Below are positions 30,031-48,749 of a stretch of DNA of 64,000 bases, one piece after another. The DNA is taken from NCBI RefSeq assembly GCF_025290835.2, contig NZ_JAOCQD020000001.1, positions 1,736,001 to 1,800,000 of the forward strand. Direction: 5' to 3'. Position 1 is the stretch's first letter. The number at the start of each line of letters is the position of its first letter. The stretch comes from Aquabacterium sp. OR-4. Lineage in GTDB: Bacteria; Pseudomonadota; Gammaproteobacteria; Burkholderiales; Burkholderiaceae_C. The position numbers and the translations under genes were made by a program. The notes below the pieces were generated by a model. The model was given only the letters and a program-made list of their open reading frames with translations, searched no databases and was not told where the DNA came from.

Positions 30031-31758
30031 TCAGTGCGTCACGCAGCTGAACGAGGTGGCCAGGTTGACATCGCCGCTGCCGCCGTAGCGCGGCCAGCGC
30101 GGGTACTCGCACAGCGGCCGGGTGCGGGTGGCCGTGCCGGTGGCGGTGTCGGCCATGGTCTGGGGCGGTGGCGCGGTCTTCTTCTCCACCCAGTTCTCCA
30201 GCGTGGTCAGCGAGTCCCAGGCCACGTTGAACTGGCTGCTCAGCGCATGGCCGTAGCCGGGCGCCTCGTAGTAGCGGGCAAAGCGGTGCACCTCGCCCGG
30301 CGTCATGCGCGCCTGCAGGCGCTGGTAGTACTCGGCGCTGCCACGCGCACTGACCAGCACATCGGCCACGCCGTGCGCCAGCAGCAGCTTGCCGCCGCGG
30401 GCGGCAAAGGCGTCCAGGTTCACCGGCACATCGAGCAGCGTGGACAGCTCGCTGATCCGCGAGCCCCAGGCGCCGGGGTTCTCGGGGTCCAGCGACAGCG
30501 GGTTGTACTGCAGGTCGCGCGTGATGGCGTAGCGGATCAGCGCATCGGTCTGCCGCGCCACATAGGGCGCACCGGTGGGCATCGGGTGGGCCGGCGGCTC
30601 GGTGCCGAGGTTGAGGAAGGTGATGACCGGCTGCATGGCATTGCTGCCGGCGATGCCCAGATCGGAGCCCCACAGGTTGTAGCCCGGGTACGAGGTTTCG
30701 CCGCTGGCCAGCGGGAAGTTGAAGCGCGTGGCGCTGTTCATGGCCTTGAGGGTGCTGATCTGGAGGTCAGACAGGCAGAAGTCGCCGCTGTCCACGCCGC
30801 CGGCGCAGCGCAGCGGCGTGCCGTTGAGGCTGGCGGTGGCGGGGTCGAAGCGGTCGTTGCAGCGGCTCTGGTCGCTGACCACGCCATCGCTCAGGCCATC
30901 GAGCGCGTCGCAGGCGGCCAGCGCGACGTTGAGCAGCAGCAGGCGCTTGGCCTGGTTCGGGTAGGCGCCGGGTTGCGACAGCGCGCGGCTGGCGCGGTGG
31001 CCGGCCAGCATGGCCGACAGCTGCTTCCAGGCCGGGTACCAGGCAATGATGCCGTCCCAGTCGGCCGGCCAGCGCGTGGCCACTTCCAGGGCCTCGCGGC
31101 CGCCGGTCGAGCCGCCGGCAAAGTAGGCCTGCGCCACGCTGTCGGCCGCGTAGCGTGCCTTGATCACATGCAGGGCCGCGTCGCGGGTCTTCTTCAGTGC
31201 CTCGCCGGCCCAGTTGCGCAGCGACTCCTCGTTGAGCAAAAAGCTGCCGTCGAGCGAACCCAGCGCGCCGGCAGCGTGGCCGCCATTGCTGGCCAGCACG
31301 GCATACCCGCGCGCAATCGGCCGGGGCTGGTCAACCGGGCCGGCCGGCACATTGCCCGTGACATTGGGAATGCTGCCGTTGAAGCCGCCACCGCCCAGCA
31401 TCATCAGCTTGTTGTTCCATTGCGCCGGCAGCGCAATGCGCAGGCTGATGTCGGGCGCGCTCTTGTCCAGCGGCGCGATGCTGGCCGTCACCAGGCAATG
31501 CTCGGGCACCAGGTTGGCGCCGGCACCGGCGGCCGGCACCACCACGGCCGAGAGCACGCTGCCCCCCGAGGTGGGCAGCCCGATCACGCTGGCCGGGATG
31601 CCCAGGCCGACCAGCTGCTCGCAGCCCAGCGGCCGGGCGGCGGCCGGCCCGGCCGCGGGCGCGGCGGCCGATTCACCGTCGGCGCCACCGCAGGCCATCA
31701 AGGGCAGCGCGGTGGCAAGAACCAGTGCGCGTTGGCGCATCGGGGCAAGGGGGTACAT
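30031..31758 (-). CDS. Tannase/feruloyl-esterase-family lipoprotein, copy 1
   Basis: The 575-residue protein has a lipoprotein signal (LPLMAC, Cys23) and a tannase-family alpha/beta hydrolase. Nucleophile Ser217 lies in GGSTGGRE, acid Asp466 in HGVADVLVS and His504 in PGYGHALSS. A calcium-site-like segment (CDALDGLSDGVV) lies in the lid. Family members hydrolyse esters of aromatic acids (tannins, feruloyl esters, the PET monomer MHET). The family's CS-D-HC disulfide is absent: Gly216 precedes the Ser and Ala505 follows the His. The start at 31758 has a GGAG five bases upstream and gives a short basic n-region. The GGAG falls in a hairpin (31764-31796). The gene is last in the minus-strand cluster. 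Confidence 0.88.
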   Translation of the reverse strand: MYPLAPMRQRALVLATALPLMACGGADGESAAAPAAGPAAARPLGCEQLVGLGIPASVIGLPTSGGSVLSAVVVPAAGAGANLVPEHCLVTASIAPLDKSAPDISLRIALPAQWNNKLMMLGGGGFNGSIPNVTGNVPAGPVDQPRPIARGYAVLASNGGHAAGALGSLDGSFLLNEESLRNWAGEALKKTRDAALHVIKARYAADSVAQAYFAGGSTGGREALEVATRWPADWDGIIAWYPAWKQLSAMLAGHRASRALSQPGAYPNQAKRLLLLNVALAACDALDGLSDGVVSDQSRCNDRFDPATASLNGTPLRCAGGVDSGDFCLSDLQISTLKAMNSATRFNFPLASGETSYPGYNLWGSDLGIAGSNAMQPVITFLNLGTEPPAHPMPTGAPYVARQTDALIRYAITRDLQYNPLSLDPENPGAWGSRISELSTLLDVPVNLDAFAARGGKLLLAHGVADVLVSARGSAEYYQRLQARMTPGEVHRFARYYEAPGYGHALSSQFNVAWDSLTTLENWVEKKTAPPPQTMADTATGTATRTRPLCEYPRWPRYGGSGDVNLATSFSCVTH

Positions 31759-31763
31759 GGCGT

Positions 31764-31796
31764 CTCCAGGAGCGCCTTGTGAGGTGGCGCCTGGAG
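31764..31796 (-). promoter_or_regulatory. Hairpin that would cover the ribosome-binding site of esterase copy 1
   Basis: In the transcript, CTCCAGGCGCC (from 31796 down to 31786) can pair with GGCGCTCCTGGAG (31776 to 31764), leaving a small bulge. The 3' arm contains the GGAG used by the start at 31758. This could limit translation or act as a weak terminator for the regulator gene upstream. It is seen by eye only. Confidence 0.45.
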
Positions 31797-31839
31797 CCGC
31801 AGTGTTGGCACATCGCGGCTGCGCCGCCATGTGCCCGGC

Positions 31840-33816
31840 TCACACCGGGCTGGTGTGGCCGGTGTGTCCGGGTGCCACCGGCTCGGTGCGCAGGCTCCAC
31901 AGGCGCAGCGCGATGTGGATCTCGAGCGCGCGCATCGCCTGGCCCCAATGGCCCAACAGGTCTTCCACGGTGGCCAGCCGCTGGCGCACGGTGTTGGCGT
32001 GGATGTTCAGCCGTTGCGCCGTGGTCTTGGCGTTCTGGTTGCAGTCGAAATAACACAGCAGGGTGTCGGCCAGGCCGGAGCGGCGCTTGCGGTCGTGCTC
32101 GAGCAGCGGGCCGATGGTGGCGTGCAGAAACTGGTCCAGGCTGGACGGGTCCTGGGTCTCGAACAGCGTGGAGTACAGCGCCAGCTCGTTCTGGCCCACC
32201 ACCTGGCCCTGCACCCCCAGCCGCTGCAGCACCCCCAGGGACCGCCGCAGCGTGGCAAACACGCCCGGCAGCGCGGCCGGGTTGCTCATCGGGCGCGAGA
32301 ACACCCCGCGGTGCCCGGCACCGGCCTCGCGGCGAGCCCAGCCGGCCACCGCCTGGCGCACGCCGTCGGCCCGCGGTGCGCCGCACAGCACGACCAGCAG
32401 GCCGTCGATGTCTTCGACCAGGCAGCGCTCGAGCGCGCCCATGGGCCGCAGGCGGCGCGCCGCATAGGCACTGCCCGGCGCGTCCAGCTCGAGCAGCAGC
32501 AGCGACAGCGGCTGGCCCAGGTCGAGGCCCAGGTGCGCGGCACGGTCGGCCATGGCCGCCAGGTCGTCCTGGCGCGGTGACAACAGGGCGCGCAGCAGCG
32601 CCGCGGTGTCGCGGCTTTGCGCGGCCTCGCGCCGCTCCTGCGACAGCAGCACGATGCCCACCACGCTGGAGCTGCGCTCGAGCGTGCGCACCGCCAGCTC
32701 CGACAGCGCACCGGCATGAAACAGCGCCAGCGCGCCCAGCATGCCGTCGCCGCCGATGACGGGCATCACGCGGCAATGCTCGCCATCGTCCTGATAGGCC
32801 GGCACCGAGCGGCCGATGCGGCGCGCCTGGCGCAGGGCCTCGGCCATGGCCGCGCTGCGCTGGTCGTGCGGCGCGTAGCGCGCGGCGCCGCTGCCGCCAT
32901 AGCCCTCGGCCGTGCCGCGGCTCAGCACCTGGGCGGCCTCGTCGAGCACCAGCACGCTGCCGCCCAGGCGCTGGGCCACCGACTGGCACAGCGTGGCCAG
33001 CGAGGCGCCGCGCGCCAGCAGCGAGGTCATTTCCTCGTGGGCATCGGCTGCGGCCTGCACGTCGCGCGCATGCTGCTCCAGCGCGGCGCGTGCGGCGTCG
33101 GCCTGGCACAGCGCGGCCTGCACACGGCCGAAGTCGCGCGCGTTCTTCAGCGCCACCGCGGCGTGCGTGGCCAGGGTGCTCAGGATGGCCAGGTTGTGGG
33201 CCGTGTGCACGCGCGGGTAGCGGTCGGCCACGAACAGCAGGCCGATGACCTCGTCGGCCCAGATCAGCGGCACGCCGGCCAGGGCCACGATGCCCTCGTC
33301 GCGAAACACGCTGTCGAGCCCGACATCGTGGGTGAAGCGGCGGTCGTGCAGGTAGTCGGGCGTGGTGAAGGCCTGGCGCGTGGACATCACCACGCTGACC
33401 ACCCCGCGCTCGCGGCCCACCACCATGGCTGCCGTGCCGGGCGCCAGCGAACCTTCGGCCACCACCACGCGGAACACGCCCTGCGCGCCGTCCAGGATCG
33501 ACAGCCAGGCCATGTCGCCACCCAGCAGGGCCCGCGCACGGCGCACGATGGTGCGCAGCAGTTCGTCCAGGTCGAGCCGGCTGGACAGGTCTTGCGCCGA
33601 CTCGACGATGGCCAGCAGCCCCTGCTCGCGCTGCTGCAGCAGCTCCAGCCGGTTGCGCACGGCCATGGCCATGCGCACACGCTCGATCAGCGCCGTCTTG
33701 CTGTTCGATCCGGGCAGGGCCTCGGCAGCCAGCAGGCGGGCGCCGAACTCGTCCGCCAGGGCCCCCTGGTGCAAGAGATCCACCAGGTCGGCGGCAATCT
33801 GTTCGGCGGACTCCAT
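31840..33816 (-). CDS. GAF-domain, PucR/CdaR-type transcriptional regulator, copy 1
   Basis: The 658-residue protein has an N-terminal helical region, a GAF domain (about 70-230; GLLAIVESAQDLSSRLDLDEL to ALKNARDF), a coiled-coil stretch, a second GAF-like part (about 255-400) and a C-terminal PucR-type helix-turn-helix (LCYFDCNQNAKTTAQRLNIHANTVRQRL). Such regulators sense small molecules and activate catabolic operons. It has a close paralog at 39065-41002; the NTVRQRL here replaces NTVRYRL. It lies 81 bases upstream of esterase copy 1 and 76 after the dehydrogenase, all on one strand, so it probably controls this cluster. Confidence 0.88.
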   Translation of the reverse strand: MESAEQIAADLVDLLHQGALADEFGARLLAAEALPGSNSKTALIERVRMAMAVRNRLELLQQREQGLLAIVESAQDLSSRLDLDELLRTIVRRARALLGGDMAWLSILDGAQGVFRVVVAEGSLAPGTAAMVVGRERGVVSVVMSTRQAFTTPDYLHDRRFTHDVGLDSVFRDEGIVALAGVPLIWADEVIGLLFVADRYPRVHTAHNLAILSTLATHAAVALKNARDFGRVQAALCQADAARAALEQHARDVQAAADAHEEMTSLLARGASLATLCQSVAQRLGGSVLVLDEAAQVLSRGTAEGYGGSGAARYAPHDQRSAAMAEALRQARRIGRSVPAYQDDGEHCRVMPVIGGDGMLGALALFHAGALSELAVRTLERSSSVVGIVLLSQERREAAQSRDTAALLRALLSPRQDDLAAMADRAAHLGLDLGQPLSLLLLELDAPGSAYAARRLRPMGALERCLVEDIDGLLVVLCGAPRADGVRQAVAGWARREAGAGHRGVFSRPMSNPAALPGVFATLRRSLGVLQRLGVQGQVVGQNELALYSTLFETQDPSSLDQFLHATIGPLLEHDRKRRSGLADTLLCYFDCNQNAKTTAQRLNIHANTVRQRLATVEDLLGHWGQAMRALEIHIALRLWSLRTEPVAPGHTGHTSPV

Positions 33817-33892: not shown

Positions 33893-34840
33893 TCAACACT
33901 GGCAACCCCCTTCCCATGTGTGCGGATCACGGGGGGCTGCGGCGAGCGGGGCTTGAAGATGGGCCGCGAGCCGGCGCCGCAGGGCTTCGGCTTCGCCATC
34001 ACGCCAGAGCCGCAGGCCCTGCCCCGTCTGCATGCCGAGGTGGCCATCGTCGATCAGCCGGTCCAGCAGCGGCGAGGCCTGCGGCGTGGCCCGCAGCGAC
34101 GGAAACAGATAGCGATGCACCGCACGGGTCAGGTCCAGGCCCACCAGATCGGCGTTCTCCATCGGGCCCAGCACCGGGAGGCGCAAGCCAAAGCTGTTCT
34201 TGACCACCAGGTCGATGGCCTCGGCATCGCAGACGCCGTCCTCGACCAGGCCGATGGCCTCGCGCCACAGTGCGTGCTGCAGCCGGTTGCCGATGAAGCC
34301 GGGCACATCGTGATGCACCTTGACCGGCAGCTTGCCAATGGCGGCCAGCCATTCAAAGGCCGCCTCGAACACTGCCGCATCGGTGTGCGGCGTGCGCACC
34401 AGTTCCACCAGCGGAATCAGGTGCGGCGGGTTCCACCAATGCATGCCCAGCAGGCGGGCGCGTGCGCTGCCGGCCAGGCCTTCGCCGATGCGCGTGATCG
34501 GGATCACCGAGGTGTTGCTGGCCAGGATGGCGTGGCCCGGCGCGGCCTCGGCCATGCGGGTGAACAGCTGCTGCTTCAGCGCAAGCCGCTCGGGCACGGC
34601 CTCGATGACCAGGTCGGCGTGCGCCACTGCCTCCTCGAGCCCGGCCTCGAGCGAGATGCGCGCCATCACCGGGCCGGGCTCGCGCCCTTCGTCGCGCAGG
34701 TTGGCCGCCACGCGCGCCAGGGCGGCAGCGCGCGCGCCCAGGTCGGGATCGCTCAGCACCACGGCATGGCCGGCCGTGGCAAACACCTGGGCGATGCCAT
34801 GCCCCATCAGGCCGGCGCCGATGACAGTGACGGACTTCAT
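33893..34840 (-). CDS. 3-hydroxyacyl-CoA dehydrogenase-family NAD-dependent dehydrogenase
   Basis: The 315-residue enzyme has the N-terminal Rossmann motif GAGLMG (8-13), SNTS at 108-111, catalytic His134 in GMHWWNPP with its partner Glu146, and the C-terminal helical domain (PGFIGNRLQHALWREA). Single-domain members of this size include 3-hydroxybutyryl-CoA, L-carnitine and L-gulonate dehydrogenases. It should oxidise a 3-hydroxy acid or its CoA ester to the 3-keto compound. Its start is six bases after the esterase copy 2 stop, so the two are one operon. The BKACE enzyme encoded at 46898 cleaves free 3-keto acids, which makes a free 3-hydroxy acid a plausible substrate. Confidence 0.88.
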   Translation of the reverse strand: MKSVTVIGAGLMGHGIAQVFATAGHAVVLSDPDLGARAAALARVAANLRDEGREPGPVMARISLEAGLEEAVAHADLVIEAVPERLALKQQLFTRMAEAAPGHAILASNTSVIPITRIGEGLAGSARARLLGMHWWNPPHLIPLVELVRTPHTDAAVFEAAFEWLAAIGKLPVKVHHDVPGFIGNRLQHALWREAIGLVEDGVCDAEAIDLVVKNSFGLRLPVLGPMENADLVGLDLTRAVHRYLFPSLRATPQASPLLDRLIDDGHLGMQTGQGLRLWRDGEAEALRRRLAAHLQAPLAAAPRDPHTWEGGCQC

Positions 34841-34846: not shown

Positions 34847-36550
34847 TCAATGGCTGCTGCAGGTGAACGACTCGGCAGCGTTCAGATCGCCGCTGCCGCG
34901 GTACCTGGGCCACAGCGGGTAGTCGCACAGCGGGCGGGTTCGGCCGGGCACGCCCACGGTGTCGGTGGTCACCTGCCGCTCGGGTGCATGTCCCTGCTCA
35001 ACCCATTGCTCGAGTGCACTGAGCGAGTCCCAGGTGGCGTTGAACACACTGCTGACGGCATGGTTGTAGCCCGGCACCTCGTAGTAGCGCACAAAGCTGC
35101 GCAGCGGCCCGGCCCCCATCTGTGCCAGCCAGACGTTGTAGAGCGCGCGTGTAGAACGGCTGCTCACCAGCACATCGTTCAGGCCGTGGGCCAGCAGCAG
35201 CTTGCCGCCCTTGGCGGCAAAGGCCGACAGGTCGCGGCGGTTGTCCAGACTGGCGCTCAGCAGGCCGATGCGCGCGGCCCAGGCGCCCGGGTTCTCGGGG
35301 TCGAGCGACAGCGCGTCGTAGCTGGGGTCGCGGGTGACGTGAAAGCGGACCCACTGGTCCAGGTAGATGCTGATGTAGGGCGCGTCGGCCGGCATGGGCC
35401 GGCCGGGCGCCGACTTGTTGAACGCCAGGAAATTGACGATGGGCTGCACCGCGTGGGTGCGGGTGTGGATGCCGGTGTCGGCGCCCCAGATGTTGTAGCC
35501 GGGGTGCTGGTGCTCGCCGCTGGCAAGGTAGTCCAGACGGGTGGGCGTGTTGATCACCTTCATGGCCGTGATCTGGACGTCGGACAGGCAGTGGTCGCCC
35601 GTGTCGGCACCGTCCGCACAACGCAGCGCCTGATCGCCCAGCCGGGCCGTGGCGGGATCGAACACCGCATTGCAGCGGTCCTGGTGGCTGATCAGGCCGT
35701 CGAGCGCGCCGTCCAGGCCGTCACAGGCCTGCAACGCGGCCCGCAGCAGCGCGTCGCGCTTGGCTGCATTGGGGTAGGCACCGGGCTGGGCCAGCGCGCG
35801 GTTCATGCGGTGGCCACCGAGGATGCTCACCATGCCGGCGCTGGCCGGGTACCAGGCGATCGCGCCATCCCAGTCGGCCGGCCAGCGCTGCACGGCCTGG
35901 ATGGCTTCGCGCCCGCCCGTCGAACCGCCGCTGAAATAGGCCCGCACCGGTGGCCGCCCGTAACGATGGGCGATCAGGGCAATGGCCACGTCGCGGGTCT
36001 TCTTCAGTGCGTCGCCGGCATAGTTGGCCAGCGCCTCGTCGTTCAGGCCGAACGACGCATCCAGGCTGCCCAGCGCATTGGCCTGGTGGCCCGAGTCGCT
36101 GCCGAAGGTGGCGTAGCCGCGCGCCATCGGCAAGGGCTTGTCCACCGGGCCGGCCGACACATTGCCCAGCACATTGGGAACGGTGCCATTGAGTCCGCCG
36201 CCGCCGAACATCAGCGCTTTGCCGTTCCACGCGTCGGGCAGGGCCAACTGAAACCGGATGGGTGGCGCCGCCGGATCGACCGGCCCGATCTCACCGGCCA
36301 CCAGGCAGTGCGCTGGCCGCAGCGCGGCGCCGCTGCCTGAGGCTGCCACCGCGGTGGCGGTGGTGACCCGCGCGCCGCGGGTGGGCAGGCCGATGCGGTC
36401 GGCGTCGACGCTGTGCGAGGCCATCTCGGCACAGCCGCGTGGTGGCTGGGGTGGCGTCGGCACGTGGAGGCTGGCGCACCCCGTGGTGGCCAGCAGCATG
36501 GCGGCCGGCAGGCAGAGGGTCAGCAAGGCGTGGATGGGTCTGACGGTCAT
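34847..36550 (-). CDS. Tannase/feruloyl-esterase-family lipoprotein, copy 2
   Basis: The 567-residue protein has a lipoprotein signal (LLATTGC, Cys25) and the same architecture as copy 1. The triad is Ser210 (SGGSTGGRE), Asp459 (HGLNDVLVS) and His497 (PGYNHAVSS). As in copy 1, the cysteines normally next to Ser and His are replaced, by Gly209 and Ala498. The copies share long blocks such as GGGG(F/L)NG, GGSTGGREA, RWPADWDG, SLDPENPGAW and the C-terminal WPRY-GSGD. The start at 36550 gives a compact lipoprotein signal; an ATG at 36583 is also open. It lies 70 bases after the TonB receptor and 6 bases before the dehydrogenase. Confidence 0.88.
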   Translation of the reverse strand: MTVRPIHALLTLCLPAAMLLATTGCASLHVPTPPQPPRGCAEMASHSVDADRIGLPTRGARVTTATAVAASGSGAALRPAHCLVAGEIGPVDPAAPPIRFQLALPDAWNGKALMFGGGGLNGTVPNVLGNVSAGPVDKPLPMARGYATFGSDSGHQANALGSLDASFGLNDEALANYAGDALKKTRDVAIALIAHRYGRPPVRAYFSGGSTGGREAIQAVQRWPADWDGAIAWYPASAGMVSILGGHRMNRALAQPGAYPNAAKRDALLRAALQACDGLDGALDGLISHQDRCNAVFDPATARLGDQALRCADGADTGDHCLSDVQITAMKVINTPTRLDYLASGEHQHPGYNIWGADTGIHTRTHAVQPIVNFLAFNKSAPGRPMPADAPYISIYLDQWVRFHVTRDPSYDALSLDPENPGAWAARIGLLSASLDNRRDLSAFAAKGGKLLLAHGLNDVLVSSRSTRALYNVWLAQMGAGPLRSFVRYYEVPGYNHAVSSVFNATWDSLSALEQWVEQGHAPERQVTTDTVGVPGRTRPLCDYPLWPRYRGSGDLNAAESFTCSSH

Positions 36551-36620
36551 GGTGGCGGTCTCGGGCTGGGTGGCTGCGGGCATGGAAGGGTTGGCAACGT
36601 GCGGGCGGCTGCGGCGGTGA

Positions 36621-38852
36621 TCAGAAGAAGCGGGTCACGCGCAAGCCGTACTGGCGGGGCGCCCCGGCGAAACGCAGGCCGGAGCTGATGGCCGCCACAT
36701 AGCGCTCGTCGGTCAGGTTGCTGCCGTAGAGGCTGGCCATCCACTCACCCTGCTCGAGGTCGATCTGCGCGCCGAGCAAGCTGCGGCTGCCCAAGCGGTC
36801 GCCCCGCGCCGCGTCGGCAAACAAGGTGGCCCACTGCGGGCCGACGTGGGCCCACAGCAGCCTCGGCGTGAGCACCGTGTCGCCAACCTGCATCCGGCGC
36901 TCGAGCCCCAGGTTGAAGGTGAACTCGGGCGCATAGGTCTGCTGCCGACCGGCGAGGTGGATGCAACTGGTGCTGGCCGGGCCCTGCAGCGGATCACACC
37001 GGCTGACGGCCGGCGCGCGCGGATCGGTGGCATAGAACTGGCCCAGCGCGCTGCGCAGCCAGCCGAGGTTCATGCGCGCCGACCAGCCCTGGCCCAGGCG
37101 TGCCTGGATCTGCTGCTCGAGGCCGTGGATGCGGGTGGGCCGCGGCGTGTTGACCTCGACCCCGAACACCGGCAGTGTCGGGTTGCCGATGGTGACCTGG
37201 AAGTTCTTGTAGTGGTTGTAGAACACCGAGGTCTGCGCGTTCAGTCGCCCGCCCAGCCAGCTGGCCTTCCAGCCCAGCTCGGCCGACAGCACCTTCTCGG
37301 CCTCGAACGGGCTGGCCTGCCCCAGGCCCACCGGCACGTTCAGGCCGCCGGGCCGGTTCGCGCTGGCAACGAAGCCGTACACGAAGTGCTGATCGTTGAT
37401 CGTCCAGTTCAGCGCCGCCTTGCCCGGGAAGCCTTTGAAGTCGACCGTCTGGCGCTGCGACAGTGGCAGGCCGTACTGCAGGATGTCGAGGTTCAGCGCA
37501 TGGTGCGTCACCGAGTAGCGCCCCTCGACCACCAGCTTGAGCTCCGGGCTCAGCTGCTGGCCCAGTTGGCCAAACACCGCCTGCGTGCGGCGCGGCGTGT
37601 CGCCATGAAAGCTGTACTCGGTGGCCGGGTTGCCCGCCGGCGTGCCGATCACCAGGTTGCCTGGCGCCACCTTGAACGACTGCCGATTGACATAGGCCCC
37701 CAGCACCCAGGTGCGGTCACCGCCATCGGCCGAGATCAGGTTGAGCTCCTGCGAGTGGCTGCGTTCGTCGGTTGAGTCGAAGAAGCGGTTGTTCGCGAAC
37801 GCGGTGCCGTCCAGGTCACCGGCGTAGGCCGTGTTGCCGGTCTGGTAGCCGGTCACTGCGCGCAGGCGGCTGCCGTCGTCGAAGCGGTACTCGAGCTTCA
37901 GCACGGTGCGCGCAAAACGGTCGCGCGCCATCTGCTCGGCATTGGCGCCGATGGTGAACGGGTCCTGGGTGGCGCTCACCGGGTCGGCCGGATACCCGCC
38001 CATGTCGATGTGGTGGATGTCCGTCTTGAGCAGCGCCGACAGGGCCGGCGACGGCTTCCACAGCAGGCCCAGGCGCGCGCTGCTGGAGCGCAGGCGCCCC
38101 GGATGGCTCGCATGCGGGCCGGTGACGGTCCAGAAGCTGTCGCGGCGCTGGCTGTTGAAGGCCACTCGCGCCGCCAGCTCGCTGCCCAGCGGCAGGTTGA
38201 CCGCGCCCTGGGCGGCCAGGTCACGGTAGTTGCCAAGCTGGCCCAGCACATAGCCGTGCACGCCGCCCTGGATGACCGGGTCGTTGGAATCAACCAGGAC
38301 GGCGCCGCCGGTGGCGTTCTGTCCGCCAAAGGTGCCCTGCGGGCCGCGCAGGATCTGCACCGAGGCGATGTCGTAGTAGGGCTCCGAGCTGAAGTAGCCC
38401 GGAGAGGTGGCCACGCCGTCGCGGTAGGTGATCACGCCGGTGGTGGTCTGGGTGTTGGTCTCGGCCTTGCCGATGCCACGGATGGTCACGTTCAGACCCT
38501 GGCCGTAGTTGTTGGCCGCCACCGAGGGCGTGGCGAACTGAAGCTGCTCGAGCACGGCCACGCCGGCGCGGGCCAGGTCGTCGCCGCTCAGCACCGTGGC
38601 CGAGACCGGCGCGGTCTTCAGCGGCTCGGCGCGGCGCGATGCGGTGATGGTGAGCGTTTCCACGGCGGGGGTGTCAGCGGCCCGGCCCCTGTCGGCCAGC
38701 TTGTCCGCCAGCTTGTCGGCAGGCTTTTCGGCCACCTTGTCGGCTGGCGGCGGATTGGCCTGGCCCTGGGCCTGCGCCAGGGTGCAACCGGCCAGGGCCA
38801 GCAGGGTCAGGCGCCGGCGGCCGGCGTCGCGGTGTCGAGTGGGGGTGTTCAT
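36621..38852 (-). CDS. TonB-dependent outer-membrane receptor
   Basis: The 743-residue receptor has a signal peptide (about 1-28, ending AQAQ). A Lys/Ala/Asp-rich repeat linker (KPADKLADKLADR) and a TonB-box-like start (ETLTITASRR) lead into the plug domain, with conserved LQFATPSVAANNYG, IRGIG and the VQILRGPQGTFGGQNATGG block. The beta barrel ends with the terminal phenylalanine (VTRFF). It should import a substrate too large for porins. The ATG at 38852 has a perfect AGGAG four bases upstream. Esterase copy 2 follows by 70 bases, so the receptor's ligand is probably that esterase's substrate. Similarity to fatty-acid, sphingolipid or siderophore receptors was not resolved. Confidence 0.92.
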   Translation of the reverse strand: MNTPTRHRDAGRRRLTLLALAGCTLAQAQGQANPPPADKVAEKPADKLADKLADRGRAADTPAVETLTITASRRAEPLKTAPVSATVLSGDDLARAGVAVLEQLQFATPSVAANNYGQGLNVTIRGIGKAETNTQTTTGVITYRDGVATSPGYFSSEPYYDIASVQILRGPQGTFGGQNATGGAVLVDSNDPVIQGGVHGYVLGQLGNYRDLAAQGAVNLPLGSELAARVAFNSQRRDSFWTVTGPHASHPGRLRSSSARLGLLWKPSPALSALLKTDIHHIDMGGYPADPVSATQDPFTIGANAEQMARDRFARTVLKLEYRFDDGSRLRAVTGYQTGNTAYAGDLDGTAFANNRFFDSTDERSHSQELNLISADGGDRTWVLGAYVNRQSFKVAPGNLVIGTPAGNPATEYSFHGDTPRRTQAVFGQLGQQLSPELKLVVEGRYSVTHHALNLDILQYGLPLSQRQTVDFKGFPGKAALNWTINDQHFVYGFVASANRPGGLNVPVGLGQASPFEAEKVLSAELGWKASWLGGRLNAQTSVFYNHYKNFQVTIGNPTLPVFGVEVNTPRPTRIHGLEQQIQARLGQGWSARMNLGWLRSALGQFYATDPRAPAVSRCDPLQGPASTSCIHLAGRQQTYAPEFTFNLGLERRMQVGDTVLTPRLLWAHVGPQWATLFADAARGDRLGSRSLLGAQIDLEQGEWMASLYGSNLTDERYVAAISSGLRFAGAPRQYGLRVTRFF
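38698..38745 (-). repeat. Four 12-bp units in the TonB receptor gene
   Basis: Adjacent 12-mers related to CAGCTTGTCGGC (plus-strand reading) encode the KVAEKPADKLADKLAD stretch between signal peptide and plug domain. Confidence 0.7.
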
Positions 38853-41002: not shown

Positions 41003-41172
41003 GTGGGGGCCTCCTTTCGCGGGGTGTCGAAGGCTACCAGAGCCGATTGGCCCGGCCGCCGCAGCCCATCGTCCTTCGATCACAACGCCAGCCGGGGCTT
41101 TGTGTGCGCCGGCCACATAGGGCTGGCGGGGCCGATTGCGCAGACTGGCGGCACGTTTCAACAGCCAGCGCC
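41003..41172. promoter_or_regulatory. Divergent promoter region of the esterase and Liv clusters
   Basis: These 170 bases separate regulator copy 2 (minus) from the SDR-Liv operon (plus). GCCGATTG occurs at 41042 and 41131, 89 bases apart, in the same orientation. No clear -10 or -35 hexamers were found. This is the likely place for a substrate-responsive operator. Confidence 0.4.
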
Positions 41173-41964: not shown

Positions 41965-41994
41965 TCCCACTTCAACAAACGGAGACAAACCAGC

Positions 41995-43233
41995 ATGAAC
42001 CCCACTCCCCGCCTCGCCGCCCTGCCCGCCGCCTTGCTGATGGCCACGGCCAGCCAGGCCGCGCCGGTCAAGATCGGCCTGCTCGAAACCCTCTCGGGAC
42101 CGCAGGCCTCGACCGGCCAGACCTTCCGCGCCGGCGTGCGCTTTGCCATCGACCGCATCAACGCCGCCGGCGGCTGGAACGGCGAGCCGGTGCAGCTGGT
42201 GGAGTACGACAACCAGGGCGGCCCGGCCGGCGCCTCCGACAAGCTCAAGGCGGCCATCGCCGATGGCGTGCAGATCGTCGTGCAGGGGGCCTCGTCGGCG
42301 ATTGCCGGCCAGATCACCGAAGACGTGCGCAAGCACAACCTGCGCAACCCCGGCAAGGAGCTGGCCTTCATCAACATCGGCGCCGAGGCGCTGGAGCTCA
42401 CCGGCGAGAAGTGCAACTTCCACCACTTCCGCCTGACCGGCAACGCCCAGGTGCGCACCAAGGTGCTGGTGCAGGGCATGAAGCAGGCCAAGGCGCTGGG
42501 AACCAAGGTCTACTCGATCAACCAGAACTACTCCTGGGGCCAGGACATGGAGCGCGCCATTGGCGACAACGCCGCGGCCGGTGGCTACAAGGTGGTCGAG
42601 AAGACGCTGCACGATGTCAACAAGATCCAGGACTTCGCGCCCTACATCGCCAAGATCACCGCCTCGGGCGCCGAAACGGTGATCACCGGCAACTGGTCCA
42701 ACGACCTGCTGCTGATGATGAAGGCGGCCAAGGCGGCCGGCCTGAAGGCCGACTTCGGCACCGTCTTCCTCGACCAGCCGGGCAACATCAGCAATGCCGG
42801 CGATACCGCGATCGGCCACTTCATCGCGCATGTGTTCAATGGCGAGGCCGGCGGCGCCGAGGGCGCCAAGTTCGTCAGCGAGTACACCGCCAAGACCGGC
42901 CACGCACCGGTCTTTGTCGAGGCCCAGTCGGTGTTTGCGCTCGAGATGGTGGCCGACGCGCTGCGCCGCACCAAGCCGGTGGGCGGCGCGCTCAGCGTCA
43001 ACGCCTTCGCCCGCGCGATGGAGACGGCCAAGATCCGCACGCCCATGGGCGAGATGAGCATGCGCGCCGCCGACCACCAGGTGCTGCTGCCGCTGGTGGT
43101 GTCCACGGTCTCCAGAGAGGCGCGCTACAAGGTCGATGGCACCGACCTGGGCTTCAAGCCGGTGCGGGTCTACAGCGCCGAAGAGTCGGCCATGCCGGTG
43201 CAGGCCGCGTGCACCATGCAGCGCCCGTCCTGA
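41995..43233 (+). CDS. Branched-chain-amino-acid-type ABC transporter substrate-binding protein
   Basis: The 412-residue periplasmic protein has a signal peptide (about 1-22, cleavage after SQA) and a type I binding fold of the LivK family (VKIGLLETLSGPQASTGQ, INAAGGWNGEPVQLVEYD, VVQGASSAIAGQIT, INQNYSWGQDM). The family binds amino acids, but relatives bind aromatic acids, amides, urea and other small organic acids. Here the neighbours (SDRs, BKACE) argue for a carboxylic acid other than a branched-chain amino acid. A strong purine-rich site (GGAGAC) precedes the ATG. Confidence 0.92.
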   Translation: MNPTPRLAALPAALLMATASQAAPVKIGLLETLSGPQASTGQTFRAGVRFAIDRINAAGGWNGEPVQLVEYDNQGGPAGASDKLKAAIADGVQIVVQGASSAIAGQITEDVRKHNLRNPGKELAFINIGAEALELTGEKCNFHHFRLTGNAQVRTKVLVQGMKQAKALGTKVYSINQNYSWGQDMERAIGDNAAAGGYKVVEKTLHDVNKIQDFAPYIAKITASGAETVITGNWSNDLLLMMKAAKAAGLKADFGTVFLDQPGNISNAGDTAIGHFIAHVFNGEAGGAEGAKFVSEYTAKTGHAPVFVEAQSVFALEMVADALRRTKPVGGALSVNAFARAMETAKIRTPMGEMSMRAADHQVLLPLVVSTVSREARYKVDGTDLGFKPVRVYSAEESAMPVQAACTMQRPS

Positions 43234-43237
43234 CGCC

Positions 43238-44179
43238 ATGGACACCCTGCTGTTCGGCCTGCTCAACGGGCTCATCTACGGGCTGCTGCTGTTCATGGTG
43301 TCGGCCGGCCTGACGCTGATCTTCGGCATGATGGGCGTGCTGAACTTCGCCCACGCTTCGTTCTACATGCTGGGGGCGTACTTCGCGTACACCCTGCAGG
43401 GCCTGCTGGGCTTTGGCGCGGCGGTGGTGGTGGCCACCGTGCTGGCCGGCGGTGTGGGAGCGCTGGTCGAGCGCTTCTTCCTGCGCCGGGTTCACCACCA
43501 TGGCCACGCGCACGAGCTGCTGCTGACCTTCGGCCTGTCGTTCATCGTGGCCGAGGCCATCAAGCTGCTGTTCGGCAACTTCCCGGTCGACTACCACGTG
43601 CCCGCGGCGCTCGACGGCCCGGCCTTCATGCTGGGCGGCCAGCAGTACCCGCGCTACCGGCTGCTGATGGGCGGCGTGGCGCTGGCGATGTTCGGCCTGC
43701 TCTACCTGCTGCTGACGCGCACCCGCGTGGGCATCATCGTGCGCTCGGCCATCTACCGGCCGCGCATGGTCGAGGCGCTGGGCCACAACGTGCAGCAGGT
43801 GTTCATGGGCGTGTTCGGCGTGGGTGCGGCCCTGGCCGGCCTGGCCGGGGCCATTGCCGGCGCCTTCTACACCACCAGCCCGAACATGGCGCTCGAGGTG
43901 GGCGTGATGGTGTTCGTGGTGGTGGTGGTCGGTGGCCTCGGATCGCTGGGCGGCGCCATGCTGGCCTCGCTGCTGATCGGCCTGATGACCTCGCTGGCCG
44001 TGGGCATCGACCACAGTCTGGCCGACGCCCTGACGCTGGTGGGCGCCGGCACCTGGGCCCAGGGCGTGGGCGGGCTGCTGACGCTCAAGCTGTCCAGCCT
44101 GGCGGCCACGCTGCCGTTCGCCCTGATGTTGTTGGTCCTGCTGCTGCGTCCGCAAGGGCTGCTCGGCGACAAGACCTGA
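43238..44179 (+). CDS. livH: LivH-type ABC transporter permease
   Basis: The 313-residue permease has about eight membrane helices and the LivH signatures GLIYGLLLFMVSAGLTLIFGMMGVLNFAHASFYMLGAY-like start and the loop GLGSLGGAMLASLLIGL near residue 230. It pairs with the LivM-type permease. It starts four bases after the binding-protein stop. Confidence 0.93.
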   Translation: MDTLLFGLLNGLIYGLLLFMVSAGLTLIFGMMGVLNFAHASFYMLGAYFAYTLQGLLGFGAAVVVATVLAGGVGALVERFFLRRVHHHGHAHELLLTFGLSFIVAEAIKLLFGNFPVDYHVPAALDGPAFMLGGQQYPRYRLLMGGVALAMFGLLYLLLTRTRVGIIVRSAIYRPRMVEALGHNVQQVFMGVFGVGAALAGLAGAIAGAFYTTSPNMALEVGVMVFVVVVVGGLGSLGGAMLASLLIGLMTSLAVGIDHSLADALTLVGAGTWAQGVGGLLTLKLSSLAATLPFALMLLVLLLRPQGLLGDKT

Positions 44180-44200
44180 TCTCTCCCCATTCCCCCTTCC

Positions 44201-45427
44201 ATGCGCAACTCCACTTCCCTGTTGCTGGGCGGCGTGGCCCTGCTCGCCGCCTTGCCGGCCCTGCTCAGCGCGGGCCTGCTCAACGCCGCGGTGCAGATGC
44301 TGATCGCAGCGCTGTTTGCCAGTGCCTACGGCCTGCTCGCCGGCCGCGCCGGCATGCTCTCGTTCGGCCATGCGGCCTACTTCGGTGTGGGCGCGTACGC
44401 CACGGTGCATGCGATGAACGCGTTCAACGGCGCCGGCCTGCTGCCCACGCCCTTGATGCCGCTGGCCGGTGCCGGCGCCGGGCTGGTGTTCGGCATCGTG
44501 GCCGGATGGTTTGCCACCCAGCGCAGCGGCACCGCGTTCGCCATGATCACGCTGGCCATCGCCGAGCTGCTGCACGCGCTGGCGCCGCAGCTCAAGTCGC
44601 TGTTCGGTGGCGAGTCGGGCATCTCGGCCATGCGCAGTGCGGCCTGGGGCCTGGACTTCGGCTCCACCACCCAGGTCTATTACCTGACCCTGGCCTGGGT
44701 GCTGCTCTCGCTGGCGCTGCTGCACTTCCACACCCGCACGCCGGCCGGCCGCCTGACCCTGGGCCTGCGCGAGAACAGCCACCGCCTGCGCTTTCTGGGC
44801 CACGACGTGCACTGGCTGGGTGTCTCGGCCTTTGCCATCTCGGGCCTGTTCTCGGGCGTGGCCGGTGCGCTGCAGGTGCTGGCCAACGAGGCGGTGAACT
44901 ACGTGGTGTTCGACGCCCATGTCTCGGCCAGCGTGGTGCTCAACAGCTACATCGGCGGCGTCGGCGTGTTTCTCGGCCCGGCCCTGGGCGCCGCGCTGAT
45001 GAGCTTTTTCGGCTATGCGGTGTCCGACGCCACCCAGGCCTGGCTGCTGTACCAGGGGCTGCTGTTCGTGCTGGTGATGATGTTCATGCCCGAGGGCCTG
45101 GTGGTGCTGGGCGGGGCCGCCATGCGCCGGCTGCGCCAGATGGGCGTGGCGCGCGCCCTGCCCTGGCTGCTGGCCTGGCTGTTGGCCGTGCTGCTGCTGG
45201 CGGCCGGCACCGTGTTTCTGGTGGAACTGCTGCAGCGGCTGTGCGCGCAGGACTACCGCGCCCTGGCCCGCGCGGCCGGCGCCTGGCCGCCGGTGAGCCT
45301 GTTCGGGCGCGCCTGGGCCCCGGCGGCGGCGGCCACCTGGGCCTGGCCGGCGCTGATGCTGGCCGGCGGCGGCGCGCTGCTGGCCTGGGCGCAACGTCGA
45401 CTGCAAGCCAAGGAGACCCCGGCATGA
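44201..45427 (+). CDS. livM: LivM-type ABC transporter permease with C-terminal extension
   Basis: The 408-residue permease has the LivM core (YGLLAGRAGMLSFGHAAYFGVGAYA, SYIGGVGVFLGPALGA) up to about residue 310. The last 90 residues add another hydrophobic segment (LPWLLAWLLAVLLLAAGTVFLVELL) and a final helix (AALMLAGGGALLAW type). That makes it longer than usual LivM (about 330 to 360 residues). The stop overlaps the ATPase start as ATGA. Confidence 0.92.
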   Translation: MRNSTSLLLGGVALLAALPALLSAGLLNAAVQMLIAALFASAYGLLAGRAGMLSFGHAAYFGVGAYATVHAMNAFNGAGLLPTPLMPLAGAGAGLVFGIVAGWFATQRSGTAFAMITLAIAELLHALAPQLKSLFGGESGISAMRSAAWGLDFGSTTQVYYLTLAWVLLSLALLHFHTRTPAGRLTLGLRENSHRLRFLGHDVHWLGVSAFAISGLFSGVAGALQVLANEAVNYVVFDAHVSASVVLNSYIGGVGVFLGPALGAALMSFFGYAVSDATQAWLLYQGLLFVLVMMFMPEGLVVLGGAAMRRLRQMGVARALPWLLAWLLAVLLLAAGTVFLVELLQRLCAQDYRALARAAGAWPPVSLFGRAWAPAAAATWAWPALMLAGGGALLAWAQRRLQAKETPA

Positions 45428-46179
45428 GCCCCCCCATCCTGCAGCTGAGCGGCCTGCGCAAGTCGTTCGGCGAGACCGACATCATCCGCGGTGTCGAGCT
45501 CGACCTCGCCGCCGGCGAACGCCGCGCGCTGATCGGCCCCAACGGCGCCGGCAAGTCAACGCTGTTCCACCTGATCTCGGGCAATCTGGCGCCGAGTGCC
45601 GGCACCATCCGCTTCCAGGGGCGCGACATCACCGGCCTGGCGCCCCAGCGCATCAACCGCCAGGGGCTGGCGCGCTCGTTCCAGATCACCAACATCTTTC
45701 CCCGGCTCAGCGTCTTCGAGAACATCCGCCTGGCCGTGTTGCGCCTGCAGCCGCAGCCCACCGCGTTCTGGCGCCGCATCGACCGCCTGCCCGGCCTGCG
45801 CGAGGCCACCGAGGCCCTGCTGGAGCGGGTGCGCCTGCAGGGCCGTGCCCAGGGGCTGGCCGGCGAGCTGAGCTACTCGGAGCAGCGCTCGCTGGAGATC
45901 GCCATGACCCTGGCCTCGGACCCGCAGCTGATCCTGCTGGACGAACCCATGGCCGGCATGTCGGGCGAGGAGACCGACTACACGATGGAACTGATCCGCG
46001 AGCTGACCGAAGGCCGCGCGCTGCTGATCGTCGAGCACGACATGGACGTGGTCTTCAAGCTGGCCGACCAGATCAGCGTGCTGGTGTATGGCGAGCTCAT
46101 CGCCACCGGCACGCCCGAGCAGATCCGCCAGCACCAGGGTGTGCGCGAAGCCTACCTGGGCGAGGAGACGGCGGCATGA
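45424..46179 (+). CDS. livG: LivG-type ABC transporter ATPase
   Basis: The 251-residue ATPase has Walker A GPNGAGKST (38-46), Walker B LILLDEPMAG and switch His in VEHDMDVV. The signature is LSYSEQ, with Ser where LSGGQ or LSYGEQ has Gly. I have the impression that this variant recurs in a LivG subfamily, but could not check. ATGA overlaps at both ends place it in the operon. Confidence 0.92.
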   Translation: MSPPILQLSGLRKSFGETDIIRGVELDLAAGERRALIGPNGAGKSTLFHLISGNLAPSAGTIRFQGRDITGLAPQRINRQGLARSFQITNIFPRLSVFENIRLAVLRLQPQPTAFWRRIDRLPGLREATEALLERVRLQGRAQGLAGELSYSEQRSLEIAMTLASDPQLILLDEPMAGMSGEETDYTMELIRELTEGRALLIVEHDMDVVFKLADQISVLVYGELIATGTPEQIRQHQGVREAYLGEETAA

Positions 46180-46886
46180 GCGCCTTGCTGACGGTCGAGA
46201 ACCTGCACGCCCACTACGGCAAGAGCCACATCCTGCAAGGCGTGAACTTCAGCGTCGGCGAGGCCCAGGTGCTCAGCCTGCTGGGCCGCAACGGCTCGGG
46301 GCGCTCCACCACCCTCAAGGCCCTGATGGGCCTGGTGCCGCCCAGCGCTGGCAGCGTGCGCCTGGCCACGCGCGAACTGGCGGGCAACCCACCCAACCGC
46401 ATCTGCCGCGCCGGCCTGGCCTATGTGCCCGAGGAACGCGAGGTCTTCGCCAACCTGAGCGTGGACGAGAACCTGCGCATGGGCGAGCAGCCCGCCGCGC
46501 CGGACGCACCGCGCTGGACGACGCAGCAGATGTTCGAGTACTTCCCGCGCCTGAAGGAGCGCCGGCACACCCGCGCCGGCAGCCTGTCGGGCGGCGAGCA
46601 GCAGATGCTGACCATCTGCCGCTCGCTGCTGGGCAACCCGCGCGTGATCCTGATCGACGAACCCACCGAAGGCCTGGCGCCGATGATCGTGGCGCAGGTG
46701 GGTGAGTGCATCAAGGACATGCGCGCCAAGGGCGTCTCGGTGGTGCTGGTGGAACAAAAGCTGGCCATCGCGCTGAAGGTCTCGGACCGGGTGTGCGTGA
46801 TGGGCCATGGGCGCATCGTGTTCGACGGCACGCCCGGTCAACTGCAGTCCGACCCCGCCCTGCTGGCGCAGTGGCTGGCGGTTTGA
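46176..46886 (+). CDS. livF: LivF-type ABC transporter ATPase with Arg in the Walker A Lys position
   Basis: The 236-residue ATPase has Walker B VILIDEPTEGL, signature LSGGEQQ and switch region VLVEQKL. Walker A reads GRNGSGRST (37-45): the invariant Lys is Arg43, encoded by CGC at 46302-46304. Everything else looks intact and in frame. It may hydrolyse ATP poorly and leave the work to the LivG partner, or belong to a subfamily that tolerates Arg. It overlaps LivG by four bases and ends 11 bases before the BKACE gene. Confidence 0.92.
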   Translation: MSALLTVENLHAHYGKSHILQGVNFSVGEAQVLSLLGRNGSGRSTTLKALMGLVPPSAGSVRLATRELAGNPPNRICRAGLAYVPEEREVFANLSVDENLRMGEQPAAPDAPRWTTQQMFEYFPRLKERRHTRAGSLSGGEQQMLTICRSLLGNPRVILIDEPTEGLAPMIVAQVGECIKDMRAKGVSVVLVEQKLAIALKVSDRVCVMGHGRIVFDGTPGQLQSDPALLAQWLAV

Positions 46887-46897
46887 GGAGCCAATCC

Positions 46898-47830
46898 ATG
46901 TCCGACAAAGTCATCATCTCCTGCGCCATCACCGGCTCGGTGCACACGCCCACGATGTCACCGCATCTGCCGCTGACACCCGAGCAGATCGCCCAGCAGG
47001 CCATCGAGGCCGCCGAGGCCGGCGCCGCCATCCTGCACCTGCACGCGCGCGACCCGGTGGACGGCCGCCCCACGCCCGACCCGGCGGTGTTTGCCCAGTT
47101 CGTGCCCCGCATCCGGGCGGCCACCGACGCGGTGATCAACATCACCACCGGCGGCAGCACCCGCATGACGCTCGACGAGCGCCTGGCCTACCCGCTGCAG
47201 GCCGCCCCCGAGATGTGCTCGCTGAACATGGGCTCGATGAACTTCAGCATCCACCCGGCGGCACGCAAGTACACGCACTGGCAGCACGACTGGGAGAAGC
47301 CCTACATCGAGGGCATGGAGGACCTGATCTTCCGCAACACCTTCCGCGACATCCGCCACATCCTGCAGGTGCTGGGCCACGAGCGCGGCACCCGCTTCGA
47401 GTTCGAGTGCTACGACGTGGGCCACCTCTACACGCTGGCCCACTTTCGCGACGAAGGGCTGATCAGCGGGCCGATCTTCCTGCAGTGCATCTTCGGCATC
47501 CTCGGCGGCCTGGGCCCCGATCCCGAGAACCTGGCCACCATGCGCACCACGGCCGACCGCCTGTTCGGCCGCGGCGGCTACCGCTTCTCGGTGCTGGGCG
47601 CCGGCCGCCACCAGATGCCCCTGCTGACCATGGCGGCGGTGATGGGCGGCCATGTGCGGGTGGGGCTGGAGGACAGCCTCTACCTGGGCCGCGGCCAGCT
47701 GGCCCGCAGCTGCGCCGAGCAGGTGCGCAAGATCCGCCGCATCCTCGACGAGCTGTCGCTCGAGGTGGCCACGCCCGCCGAGGCGCGCGCGATGCTGGCG
47801 CTCAAGGGCGCCGATGCCGTCAACTTCTGA
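46898..47830 (+). CDS. BKACE (DUF849) beta-keto acid cleavage enzyme
   Basis: The 310-residue TIM-barrel enzyme matches the beta-keto acid cleavage family: IISCAITGSVHTPTMSPHLPLTPEQI at the start, metal-binding His47 and His49 in LHLHARDP, GGSTRMT, and the EFECYD block. The family condenses a beta-keto acid with acetyl-CoA to give acetoacetate and a new acyl-CoA; known substrates include 3-keto-5-aminohexanoate and dehydrocarnitine. A GAGGAG Shine-Dalgarno precedes the ATG. It sits in one operon with the Liv transporter, so the imported compound probably becomes a beta-keto acid. Confidence 0.92.
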   Translation: MSDKVIISCAITGSVHTPTMSPHLPLTPEQIAQQAIEAAEAGAAILHLHARDPVDGRPTPDPAVFAQFVPRIRAATDAVINITTGGSTRMTLDERLAYPLQAAPEMCSLNMGSMNFSIHPAARKYTHWQHDWEKPYIEGMEDLIFRNTFRDIRHILQVLGHERGTRFEFECYDVGHLYTLAHFRDEGLISGPIFLQCIFGILGGLGPDPENLATMRTTADRLFGRGGYRFSVLGAGRHQMPLLTMAAVMGGHVRVGLEDSLYLGRGQLARSCAEQVRKIRRILDELSLEVATPAEARAMLALKGADAVNF

Positions 47831-47846
47831 ACCCGACCCCCAACCC

Positions 47847-48749
47847 ATGGAAAAACTTCTGCAAGACCGCGTGGCCCTGGTCACCGGCGCCGGTGGCGGC
47901 CTGGGCCGCGCCCACGCACTCGAGCTCGCGCGCCACGGCGCACGGGTGATCGTCAACGACATTGCCGGCGCCGACTTCGGTGCCGCCGCACGCAGCGTGG
48001 TGGCCGAGATCCGCGCCCAGGGCGGCGACGCCCAGCTGCACCTGGGCGACGTGACCCGCAGCGACGACATGCAACAGATGGCGCAGCAGGCGCACACGGC
48101 CTGGGGCCGCATCGACATCCTGGTCAACAACGCCGGCATCCTGCGCGACAAGAGCTTTGCCAAGATGGGCCTGGACGACTTTCGCCGCGTGCTCGACGTG
48201 CATGTGATGGGTGCCGTGCACGCCACCAAGGCGGTGTGGGCGCAGATGCAGGCGCAGCACTACGGCCGCATCGTGATGACGACCTCGTCGTCGGGCCTGT
48301 ACGGCAACTTCGGCCAGTCGAACTACGGCGCGGCCAAGATGGCCCTGGTGGGCCTGATGCAGACGCTGGCCCTGGAAGGCGCCCGGCGCAACATCCGGGT
48401 CAACTGCCTGGCCCCCACTGCCGCCACCGGCATGACCCACGGCATCCTGCCGGCCGAGGCGCTGGAGCGCCTGACACCCGAGCGGGTGAGCCCGGCCCTG
48501 ATTGCGCTGTGTACCGAGGATGCCCCCACGCGCATGATTCTTCTGGCGGGCGCGGGCAGCTTCGAGGCCGCCCACGTCACCCTGACCCAGGGCATCCAGC
48601 TGCCCGATGGCGCCGACACCGGCGCACGCCTGTGCGGCCTGCTCGACCAGGTGCGGCAGCGTGACGGCGAACTCGTGCCCGAGGAGGGCTGGGCGCAATA
48701 CCAGCTCGAGCTGCAGAAGGCCGCCGACGCCGCGCGGGCGGCGGCATGA
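47847..48749 (+). CDS. Short-chain dehydrogenase/reductase, MFE-2/HSD17B4-like
   Basis: The 300-residue SDR has TGAGGGLG (13-20), NNAGILRD near 95, Ser of TTSSSG and catalytic Tyr160-x3-Lys164 (YGAAK). The sequence resembles the 3-hydroxyacyl-CoA dehydrogenase part of peroxisomal-type multifunctional enzyme 2, including a C-terminal extension (about 235-300) beyond the usual 250 residues. It would act on a 3-hydroxyacyl-CoA. It follows BKACE by 16 bases and closes the operon. Its stop overlaps the ATG of a short degenerate ORF. Confidence 0.9.
   Translation: MEKLLQDRVALVTGAGGGLGRAHALELARHGARVIVNDIAGADFGAAARSVVAEIRAQGGDAQLHLGDVTRSDDMQQMAQQAHTAWGRIDILVNNAGILRDKSFAKMGLDDFRRVLDVHVMGAVHATKAVWAQMQAQHYGRIVMTTSSSGLYGNFGQSNYGAAKMALVGLMQTLALEGARRNIRVNCLAPTAATGMTHGILPAEALERLTPERVSPALIALCTEDAPTRMILLAGAGSFEAAHVTLTQGIQLPDGADTGARLCGLLDQVRQRDGELVPEEGWAQYQLELQKAADAARAAA

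Follow-up and report, generated by a model that had tools for sequence, protein, structure and literature searches.

A candidate catabolic gene cluster placing tannase-family lipoprotein esterases beside a Liv transporter and an SDR-BKACE core in Aquabacterium sp. OR-4

We analysed a 64,000-nucleotide stretch of the Aquabacterium sp. OR-4 genome (contig NZ_JAOCQD020000001.1, positions 1,736,001 to 1,800,000; hereafter the window, whose own numbering is used throughout). The subject is the gene cluster at 30031-48749, which a first-pass annotation had read as an ester-uptake and beta-keto-acid cleavage system. The receptor, tannases, PucR regulators, dehydrogenases, Liv genes and beta-keto acid cleavage enzyme (BKACE) that it had named on two divergent strands were all confirmed by strong Pfam matches among the window proteins (Table 1). 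The minus strand carries, 5' to 3', PucR-B, the TonB-dependent receptor, tannase 2, a 3-hydroxyacyl-CoA dehydrogenase family protein (HCDH), PucR-A and tannase 1, and the plus strand (41173-48749) carries a short-chain dehydrogenase (SDR1), the Liv binding protein, two permeases, two ATPases, BKACE and SDR2. Tannases 1 and 2 scored 345 and 367 bits against PF07519 (cut-off 29.8), HCDH 180 bits against 3HCDH_N, the Liv binding protein 239 bits against PF13458, and BKACE matched PF05853 over its full length with 361.6 bits (cut-off 24.8). The likely starts of tan1 (31758), PucR-A (33816), the TonB receptor (38852), SDR1 (41173), permease 1 (43238), BKACE (46898) and SDR2 (47847) lie slightly off the longest open reading frames. 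PucR-B probably starts at the TTG at 41002, read from the sequence and preceded by AAAGGAGG; coding potential placed this start at 40963.

Table 1. Features of the cluster, in window coordinates.
Feature	Positions	Strand	Description
tan1 (tannase 1)	30031..31758	-	PF07519 esterase, lipobox LMAC, GGSTGG nucleophile, 575 aa
TGTG-N7-CACAT, second exact copy	31829..31844	-	~70 bases upstream of tan1 start; suggestive only
PucR-A	31840..33816	-	GAF, GGDEF-like, PucR-HTH transcription regulator
HCDH	33893..34840	-	3-hydroxyacyl-CoA dehydrogenase family, 3HCDH_N, 315 aa
tan2 (tannase 2)	34847..36583	-	PF07519 esterase, lipobox TTGC, 578 aa
TonB-dependent receptor	36621..38852	-	plug and barrel Pfam matches
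PucR-B	39065..41002	-	GAF-PucR regulator, probable TTG start, divergent from SDR1
Palindromic motif	41099..41122	+	PucR-B / SDR1 intergenic region, kept in relatives
SDR1	41173..41964	+	short-chain dehydrogenase; nearest is the second SDR of deoxyribonate-type (D) clusters
Liv periplasmic binding protein	41995..43233	+	PBP PF13458
Liv permease 1	43238..44179	+	BPD_transp_2
Liv permease 2	44201..45427	+	BPD_transp_2
Liv ATPase 1	45424..46179	+	ABC ATPase match
Liv ATPase 2	46176..46886	+	ABC ATPase match
BKACE (beta-keto acid cleavage enzyme)	46898..47830	+	PF05853; NF053538 above cut-off
SDR2	47847..48749	+	second short-chain dehydrogenase, 300 aa

BKACE was present in 10 of 100 genomes of the family (E <= 1e-60) and in 27 of 399 genomes (E <= 1e-130), the window genome counted in both cases, and the scan of named genomes covered the best 80 of 589 loci. 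Loci with an orthologous BKACE (76-93% identical) form group W, 22 in number with two in one genome (G056), and include Variovorax, Caenimonas, Azohydromonas, Achromobacter, Alcaligenes and a metagenome-assembled genome of the Rhodocyclaceae. As controls we used 82 other BKACE loci, 10 of the deoxyribonate type (D) and 72 others. Neighbours were counted within 10 kb of BKACE, with identity thresholds of 40% for PucR, 55% for SDR1, the Liv binding protein and SDR2, and 45% for HCDH; a TonB-receptor relative had 25% or more identity over 200 residues. In W loci, a divergent GAF-PucR gene is usually followed by SDR1, the Liv genes, BKACE and often SDR2. Since this order recurs across genera, the grouping is far beyond chance. 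The W loci carried PucR in 17/22, SDR1 in 20/22, the Liv binding protein in 17/22, SDR2 in 12/22, tannase in 10/22 and HCDH in 4/22. The D loci had SDR1 in 10/10 and tannase in 1/10, with no PucR, Liv binding protein, SDR2, HCDH or TonB receptor, and the other 72 loci had HCDH in 13, a TonB receptor in one and nothing else of the set. Taking the 82 controls together, PucR, the Liv binding protein and SDR2 were never found and tannase once. Note that the Liv count hinges on the threshold, since many other BKACE loci have Liv genes too, but of another kind (25-48% identical). The first-pass annotation had taken the two arms as one system, to be given up if they proved unlinked in related genomes and responsive to unrelated substrates; in related genomes they were linked.

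The tannase linkage of W against controls gave a nominal Fisher p of 2.4e-7, with rows that are related and control flanks that are often shorter. When both flanks reached at least 8 kb, a tannase was found in 10/19 W, 1/6 D and 0/37 other loci, and taking flanks from about -14 to +9 kb gave a GGSTGGRE tannase in 13/21 W loci (14 by a looser clustering). Since the 20 genomes examined hold only 1-12 tannase genes each, the neighbourhood of tannase and BKACE is unlikely to have arisen by chance. The tannase lies directly ahead of SDR1 in G358; in G267, G229, G136, G308 and L036 it comes after BKACE or SDR2, on the strand that carries them. In G056, the Liv-BKACE block exists in two copies (L018 and L019, 97% identical over 5975 bases), one adjoined by tannase and HCDH and the other by PucR. 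In G312 (L113:1401-2156) and G308 (L114:16148-16903), SDR2 is followed directly by a third SDR of 251 aa, and G358 has a gene similarly placed.

Both the BKACE and the SDR1 of the window have their closest kin in the D clusters. In the BKACE tree (92 rows, with W represented by the window and nine loci, the other W loci having been found later), the W clade (99/91) is sister to D (100/97), and two phloroglucinol-like rows (L045, L049) and L030 fall just outside W and D. In the SDR1 tree, W and D join (100/99) and stand separate from every other SDR; 20 of the 21 W rows fall into one clade (100/98) that is nested within the D rows, and the remaining one (L037) pairs with the D row L042. Identity to the 10 D-type loci is 61-66% for SDR1 and 70-74% for BKACE, and at 20 of the 37 BKACE positions listed the commonest residue is the same in W and D, a pattern that pointed to no particular substrate. 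Among the SDR1 homologues listed (best 120 of 7277), no informative names were met. We took D as deoxyribonate-type because the gene order of its locus L038 (AraC, BKACE, MFS, SDR, SDR, where MFS is a major facilitator superfamily transporter) matches that of the deoxyribonate genes of Paraburkholderia bryophila (PMC6365646), a likeness of gene order. The MFS protein of L038 scores below the cut-off of the D-galactonate transporter model, and the SDR pair stands behind BKACE in 8/10 D loci. An MFS-like gene, so called by position, is common to G052W and G328. The window BKACE also matches BKACE15 of Paracoccus denitrificans (372 bits), for which activity on C5-C6 beta-keto acids has been reported (PMC11961710).

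In both window tannases we found a lipobox (by eye) and the GGSTGG nucleophile motif, and the Ser-Asp-His positions of the MHETase, tannase and feruloyl esterase family were matched by alignment. The lipoboxes support the earlier proposal that these predicted lipoproteins act outside the inner membrane. Their nearest solved relatives are MHETase (190-200 bits against its chains) and feruloyl esterases, enzymes that cut aromatic esters. In the tannase/feruloyl esterase family, the catalytic Ser and His are flanked by a cysteine pair, the CS-D-HC motif. This pair is replaced in the window proteins, which have GGSTGG and GHA or NHA where MHETase has GCSEGG and NHC; all 120 tan2 homologues listed have GGSxGG and none has GCSxGG.

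The linked tannases of the relatives are 57-70% identical to window tannase 1, and in G358, G296 and G133 the protein is 1124-1129 residues long. That of G358, a lipoprotein of 1124 residues (L116:8753-12127), is a fusion by Pfam, with a tannase at residues 83-569 and then a carboxylesterase at 578-1104; alignment revealed the same fusion in the other two. Elsewhere the carboxylesterase is a gene of its own: it stands alone in G312, where tannase is absent within 10 kb, and L036 has a separate gene 70% identical to that of G312. G401 has two more distant carboxylesterases near its tannase, and G308 has fragments. In the fetched DNA, carboxylesterase relatives were thus found in 7/22 W loci (in G308 as fragments only) and in 0/82 control loci. 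This linkage and fusion suggests that the two esterases probably serve one substrate, which possibly carries two ester bonds. In the window, a pair of tannases takes the place of tannase and carboxylesterase. The fusion protein is a candidate tool enzyme.

The PucR / SDR1 intergenic region contains a TGTG-N7-CAC(A/G)T palindrome in 13 of 16 distinct cases, the window included (14 of 17 rows before L031, a duplicate of G052W, was removed); it was absent from the regions of G401, L033 and G056b (74 bases examined). Two exact copies of the core lie in the window, at 41103-41118 and upstream of tan1. A matrix built from the intergenic copies was scored against 1204 random segments (95th percentile 7.3, 99th percentile 16.5, highest 27.6). 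It gave 14.6 upstream of window tan1, a score that 2% of the random segments equal or exceed, and 29.5 (L035), 21.0 (G078), 18.7 (G358), 12.6 (G229), 12.0 (G136) and 10.0 (G401) upstream of tannases in relatives; the other seven relatives scored 6.8 or less. L035 has its second copy between the tannase and the binding protein. Since background scores reach as high, and since the tannase upstream regions of G078 and G358 are the divergent region itself, beside SDR1 or PucR, the window copy is only suggestive of a tie between tannase 1 and the motif. As judged from these matches, the palindromic motif joins SDR1 with some of the tannase genes, and the GAF-PucR regulators probably act through TGTG-N7-CACAT, their predicted operator. 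A weaker copy was seen inside the BKACE gene (47214-47229), with the second best matrix score in the window, 16.2.

As regards uptake, the nearest solved relatives of the Liv binding protein, 4xfk and 7jfn, are titled Leu/Ile/Val/Thr/Ala-binding protein. They come from another organism and are closer than PA4913, which binds small amino acids (PMC6829864). The structure model of the binding protein made from the single sequence had a predicted local distance difference test score of 39.7 (poor, and not used), and the one made from an alignment had 63. The proposal that the TonB receptor takes up the ester was weakened, as no relative of this receptor lies within 10 kb of BKACE in any of the 22 W loci and its operon is without the motif.

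Our results suggest that the cluster could be a catabolic island whose substrate is an ester of a short 3-hydroxy acid, possibly one resembling deoxyaldonates, a reading to which we give about even chances. The lipoprotein esterases (two tannases in the window; elsewhere tannase and carboxylesterase, sometimes as one polypeptide) would cut the ester outside the inner membrane, and the Liv system would import the released acid. By homology, SDR1 would then oxidise the 3-hydroxyl to give a 3-keto acid, with HCDH and SDR2 as helpers, perhaps for other stereoisomers or hydroxyls; by the chemistry of its family, BKACE would use acetyl-CoA to split this 3-keto acid into an acyl-CoA and acetoacetate. 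As the deoxyribonate-type pair is the closest kin of SDR1 and BKACE, the likeliest candidate for the acid is a C4-C6 hydroxy acid of the 2-deoxyaldonate type. Three neighbours in relatives fit the proposed pathway: a gluconolactonase-like gene within the L036 operon, the CoA-transferase genes that follow HCDH in L033 and the 2-hydroxyacid dehydrogenase of L018 (with a relative near G328). The broader claim is more doubtful and we put it forward tentatively: esters of short 3-hydroxy, deoxyaldonate-like acids may be natural substrates of SDR-BKACE clusters, degraded by an undescribed regulated pathway in which paired or fused lipoprotein esterases feed a dedicated Liv system and SDR1-BKACE core.

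Several observations weigh against the ester-fed, short-acid reading. The W BKACE is sister to D and not within it, and the solved relatives of the Liv binding protein are named amino-acid binders. At E <= 1e-130, the five other genomes of the same genus gave no match to this BKACE. Since a tannase lies within 10 kb in only 10 of the 22 W loci, a nearby esterase is not obligatory. HCDH occurs outside W as well (4/22 W loci against 13/72 others). The loci are related and control flanks often shorter, so these counts are not independent. As for the motif, about half of the 13 linked tannases in relatives score low (6 above the 95th percentile, 3 above the 99th), as do the regions upstream of the window TonB-tan2 operon (4.0) and of tan2 itself (-1.0); allowing one mismatch, the window holds 11 copies of the core against 13.2 in shuffles, and hence no excess.

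A phloroglucinol/triacetate variant would have a polyphenol ester yield 3-hydroxy-5-oxohexanoate, which HCDH would convert to 3,5-dioxohexanoate for cleavage by BKACE. The same kinds of enzyme, an HCDH-type dehydrogenase and a BKACE, stand at the end of phloroglucinol degradation (PMC10470551). HCDH relatives adjoin BKACE in phloroglucinol-type (P) clusters, often with another Liv set, and in L045 and L050 a Cyclase gene lies a few kb from BKACE. The window BKACE passes the NCBIfam 3,5-dioxohexanoate BKACE model NF053538 (515.9 bits, cut-off 430), which bears out in part the earlier claim that it splits a beta-keto acid, but the model does not discriminate, as the phloroglucinol-type BKACE of L045 passes too (538.8 bits). 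Cyclase (PF04199, the dihydrophloroglucinol cyclohydrolase family) has three matches in the window genome, none near the cluster, the best of them on another contig with 86 bits against 133 for one near BKACE in L045. Moreover, HCDH-BKACE pairs occur without any Cyclase match (E <= 1e-8) in two Azospirillum genomes (L051, L061), HCDH lies within 10 kb in just 4/22 W loci, and BKACE and SDR1 group with D and not with P. We consider this variant unlikely. A carnitine route was also tried and rejected, HCDH falling far below the cut-offs of both carnitine dehydrogenase models (136.5 vs 414; 155.7 vs 592). A vanilloyl-acetate route through VceA (PMC11837543) was considered and not adopted.

To aliphatic 3-hydroxy-acid oligoesters, such as the 3-hydroxyvalerate or 3-hydroxyhexanoate units of polyhydroxyalkanoates, we likewise assign a low probability. 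Here the esterases would cut the oligomers, the dehydrogenases would give 3-keto acids and BKACE would release propionyl- or butyryl-CoA and acetoacetate. A related BKACE accepts beta-ketopentanoate and beta-ketohexanoate (PMC11961710). Paired or fused esterases would suit a substrate with two ester bonds, but the polyhydroxyalkanoate depolymerase family was absent among the scanned neighbours, and SDR1 is weak on the 3-hydroxybutyrate dehydrogenase model TIGR01963 (166 bits, cut-off 307). We know of no tannase-family action on such oligoesters, which also counts against them. The kinship of the tannases with MHETase and feruloyl esterases would favour the scavenging of aromatic esters, with a phenolic acid set free and BKACE and SDR1 acting on an aromatic beta-keto acid or side chain; however, the genes of the window cluster include none seen to serve ring cleavage or aromatic activation, and a short hydroxy acid is what the neighbouring D clade suggests, which makes this quite improbable. 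Finally, an ester module and a hydroxy-acid module without a common substrate could merely lie side by side, as the lack of a tannase within 10 kb in 12/22 W loci and of TonB-receptor relatives in all 22 might suggest. The recurrent tannase linkage, seen in only 1/82 controls, the motif common to both arms and the placing of tannase just ahead of SDR1 or on the same strand behind BKACE or SDR2 argue against it, and we regard it as very unlikely.

On one side of the cluster, 21166-29985 on the plus strand encodes a protein of 2939 residues that combines a glycoamylase domain with GH94 catalytic and supersandwich domains and looks like a cyclic beta-1,2-glucan synthase; a look for tandem repeats in this large gene gave nothing of note. 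On the other side, 48892-60681 holds genes that look ordinary: a PRC-barrel protein, a DUF1345 protein, response-regulator/histidine-kinase proteins and a long catalase.

The component genes and the SDR-BKACE core are already known; their combination, the esterase and Liv front end included, seems undescribed. The earlier statement that no described pathway has this set is therefore kept for the front end, which we did not find described, and not for the core: the SDR1-BKACE pair resembles the deoxyribonate route (PMC6365646), and the HCDH-BKACE pair the closing part of the phloroglucinol route (PMC10470551). In the open-licence literature, tannase together with "beta-keto acid cleavage" or "3-keto-5-aminohexanoate" was found only in PMC10470551, where tannase appears in the introduction and references; DUF849 together with feruloyl esterase was not found, and in a wider tannase/BKACE search of that literature the BKACE term was absent among the matches listed. 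Among the papers listed by a search on phenolic esters of deoxyribonolactone, none mentioned that lactone, a result that weighs neither for nor against such esters. The natural substrates of SDR-BKACE clusters have been posed as a question in PMC6365646, which proposes deoxyribonate and gives no measured plant or soil source. An esterase-bearing clade related to D makes this question testable. If our reading is right, BKACE catabolism would gain a branch fed by esters, and the genes defined here could be used to test which natural esters supply it.

As a member of the BKACE family (PF05853; 8rip, 3e02), the window protein matches over its full length and belongs to a clade of its own (W) with a neighbourhood of its own. 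The window tannases are like the MHETase, tannase and feruloyl esterase family (PF07519) in family match, Ser-Asp-His positions and lipobox; they differ from MHETase in having Gly and Ala for its two cysteines beside the catalytic Ser and His, and three relatives of the cluster differ from the family in the fusion to a carboxylesterase. The phloroglucinol pathway (PMC10470551) shares HCDH-type and BKACE-type enzymes with the window, whose cluster is without a linked cyclase and has esterase genes added. With regard to phloroglucinol reductase, SDRs are present in the cluster, though a role for them in that step would be conjecture. The closest likeness is to the oxidative 2-deoxy-D-ribonate pathway described in P. 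bryophila, B. phytofirmans and P. simiae (PMC6365646), which also has an SDR dehydrogenase and a BKACE in one cluster. Compared with it, the W BKACE forms a separate sister clade outside D; most W loci have Liv genes instead of an MFS transporter, as does the window cluster, where no MFS gene was met; GAF-PucR is the regulator in most W loci and AraC in 3/21; and lipoprotein esterases are added.

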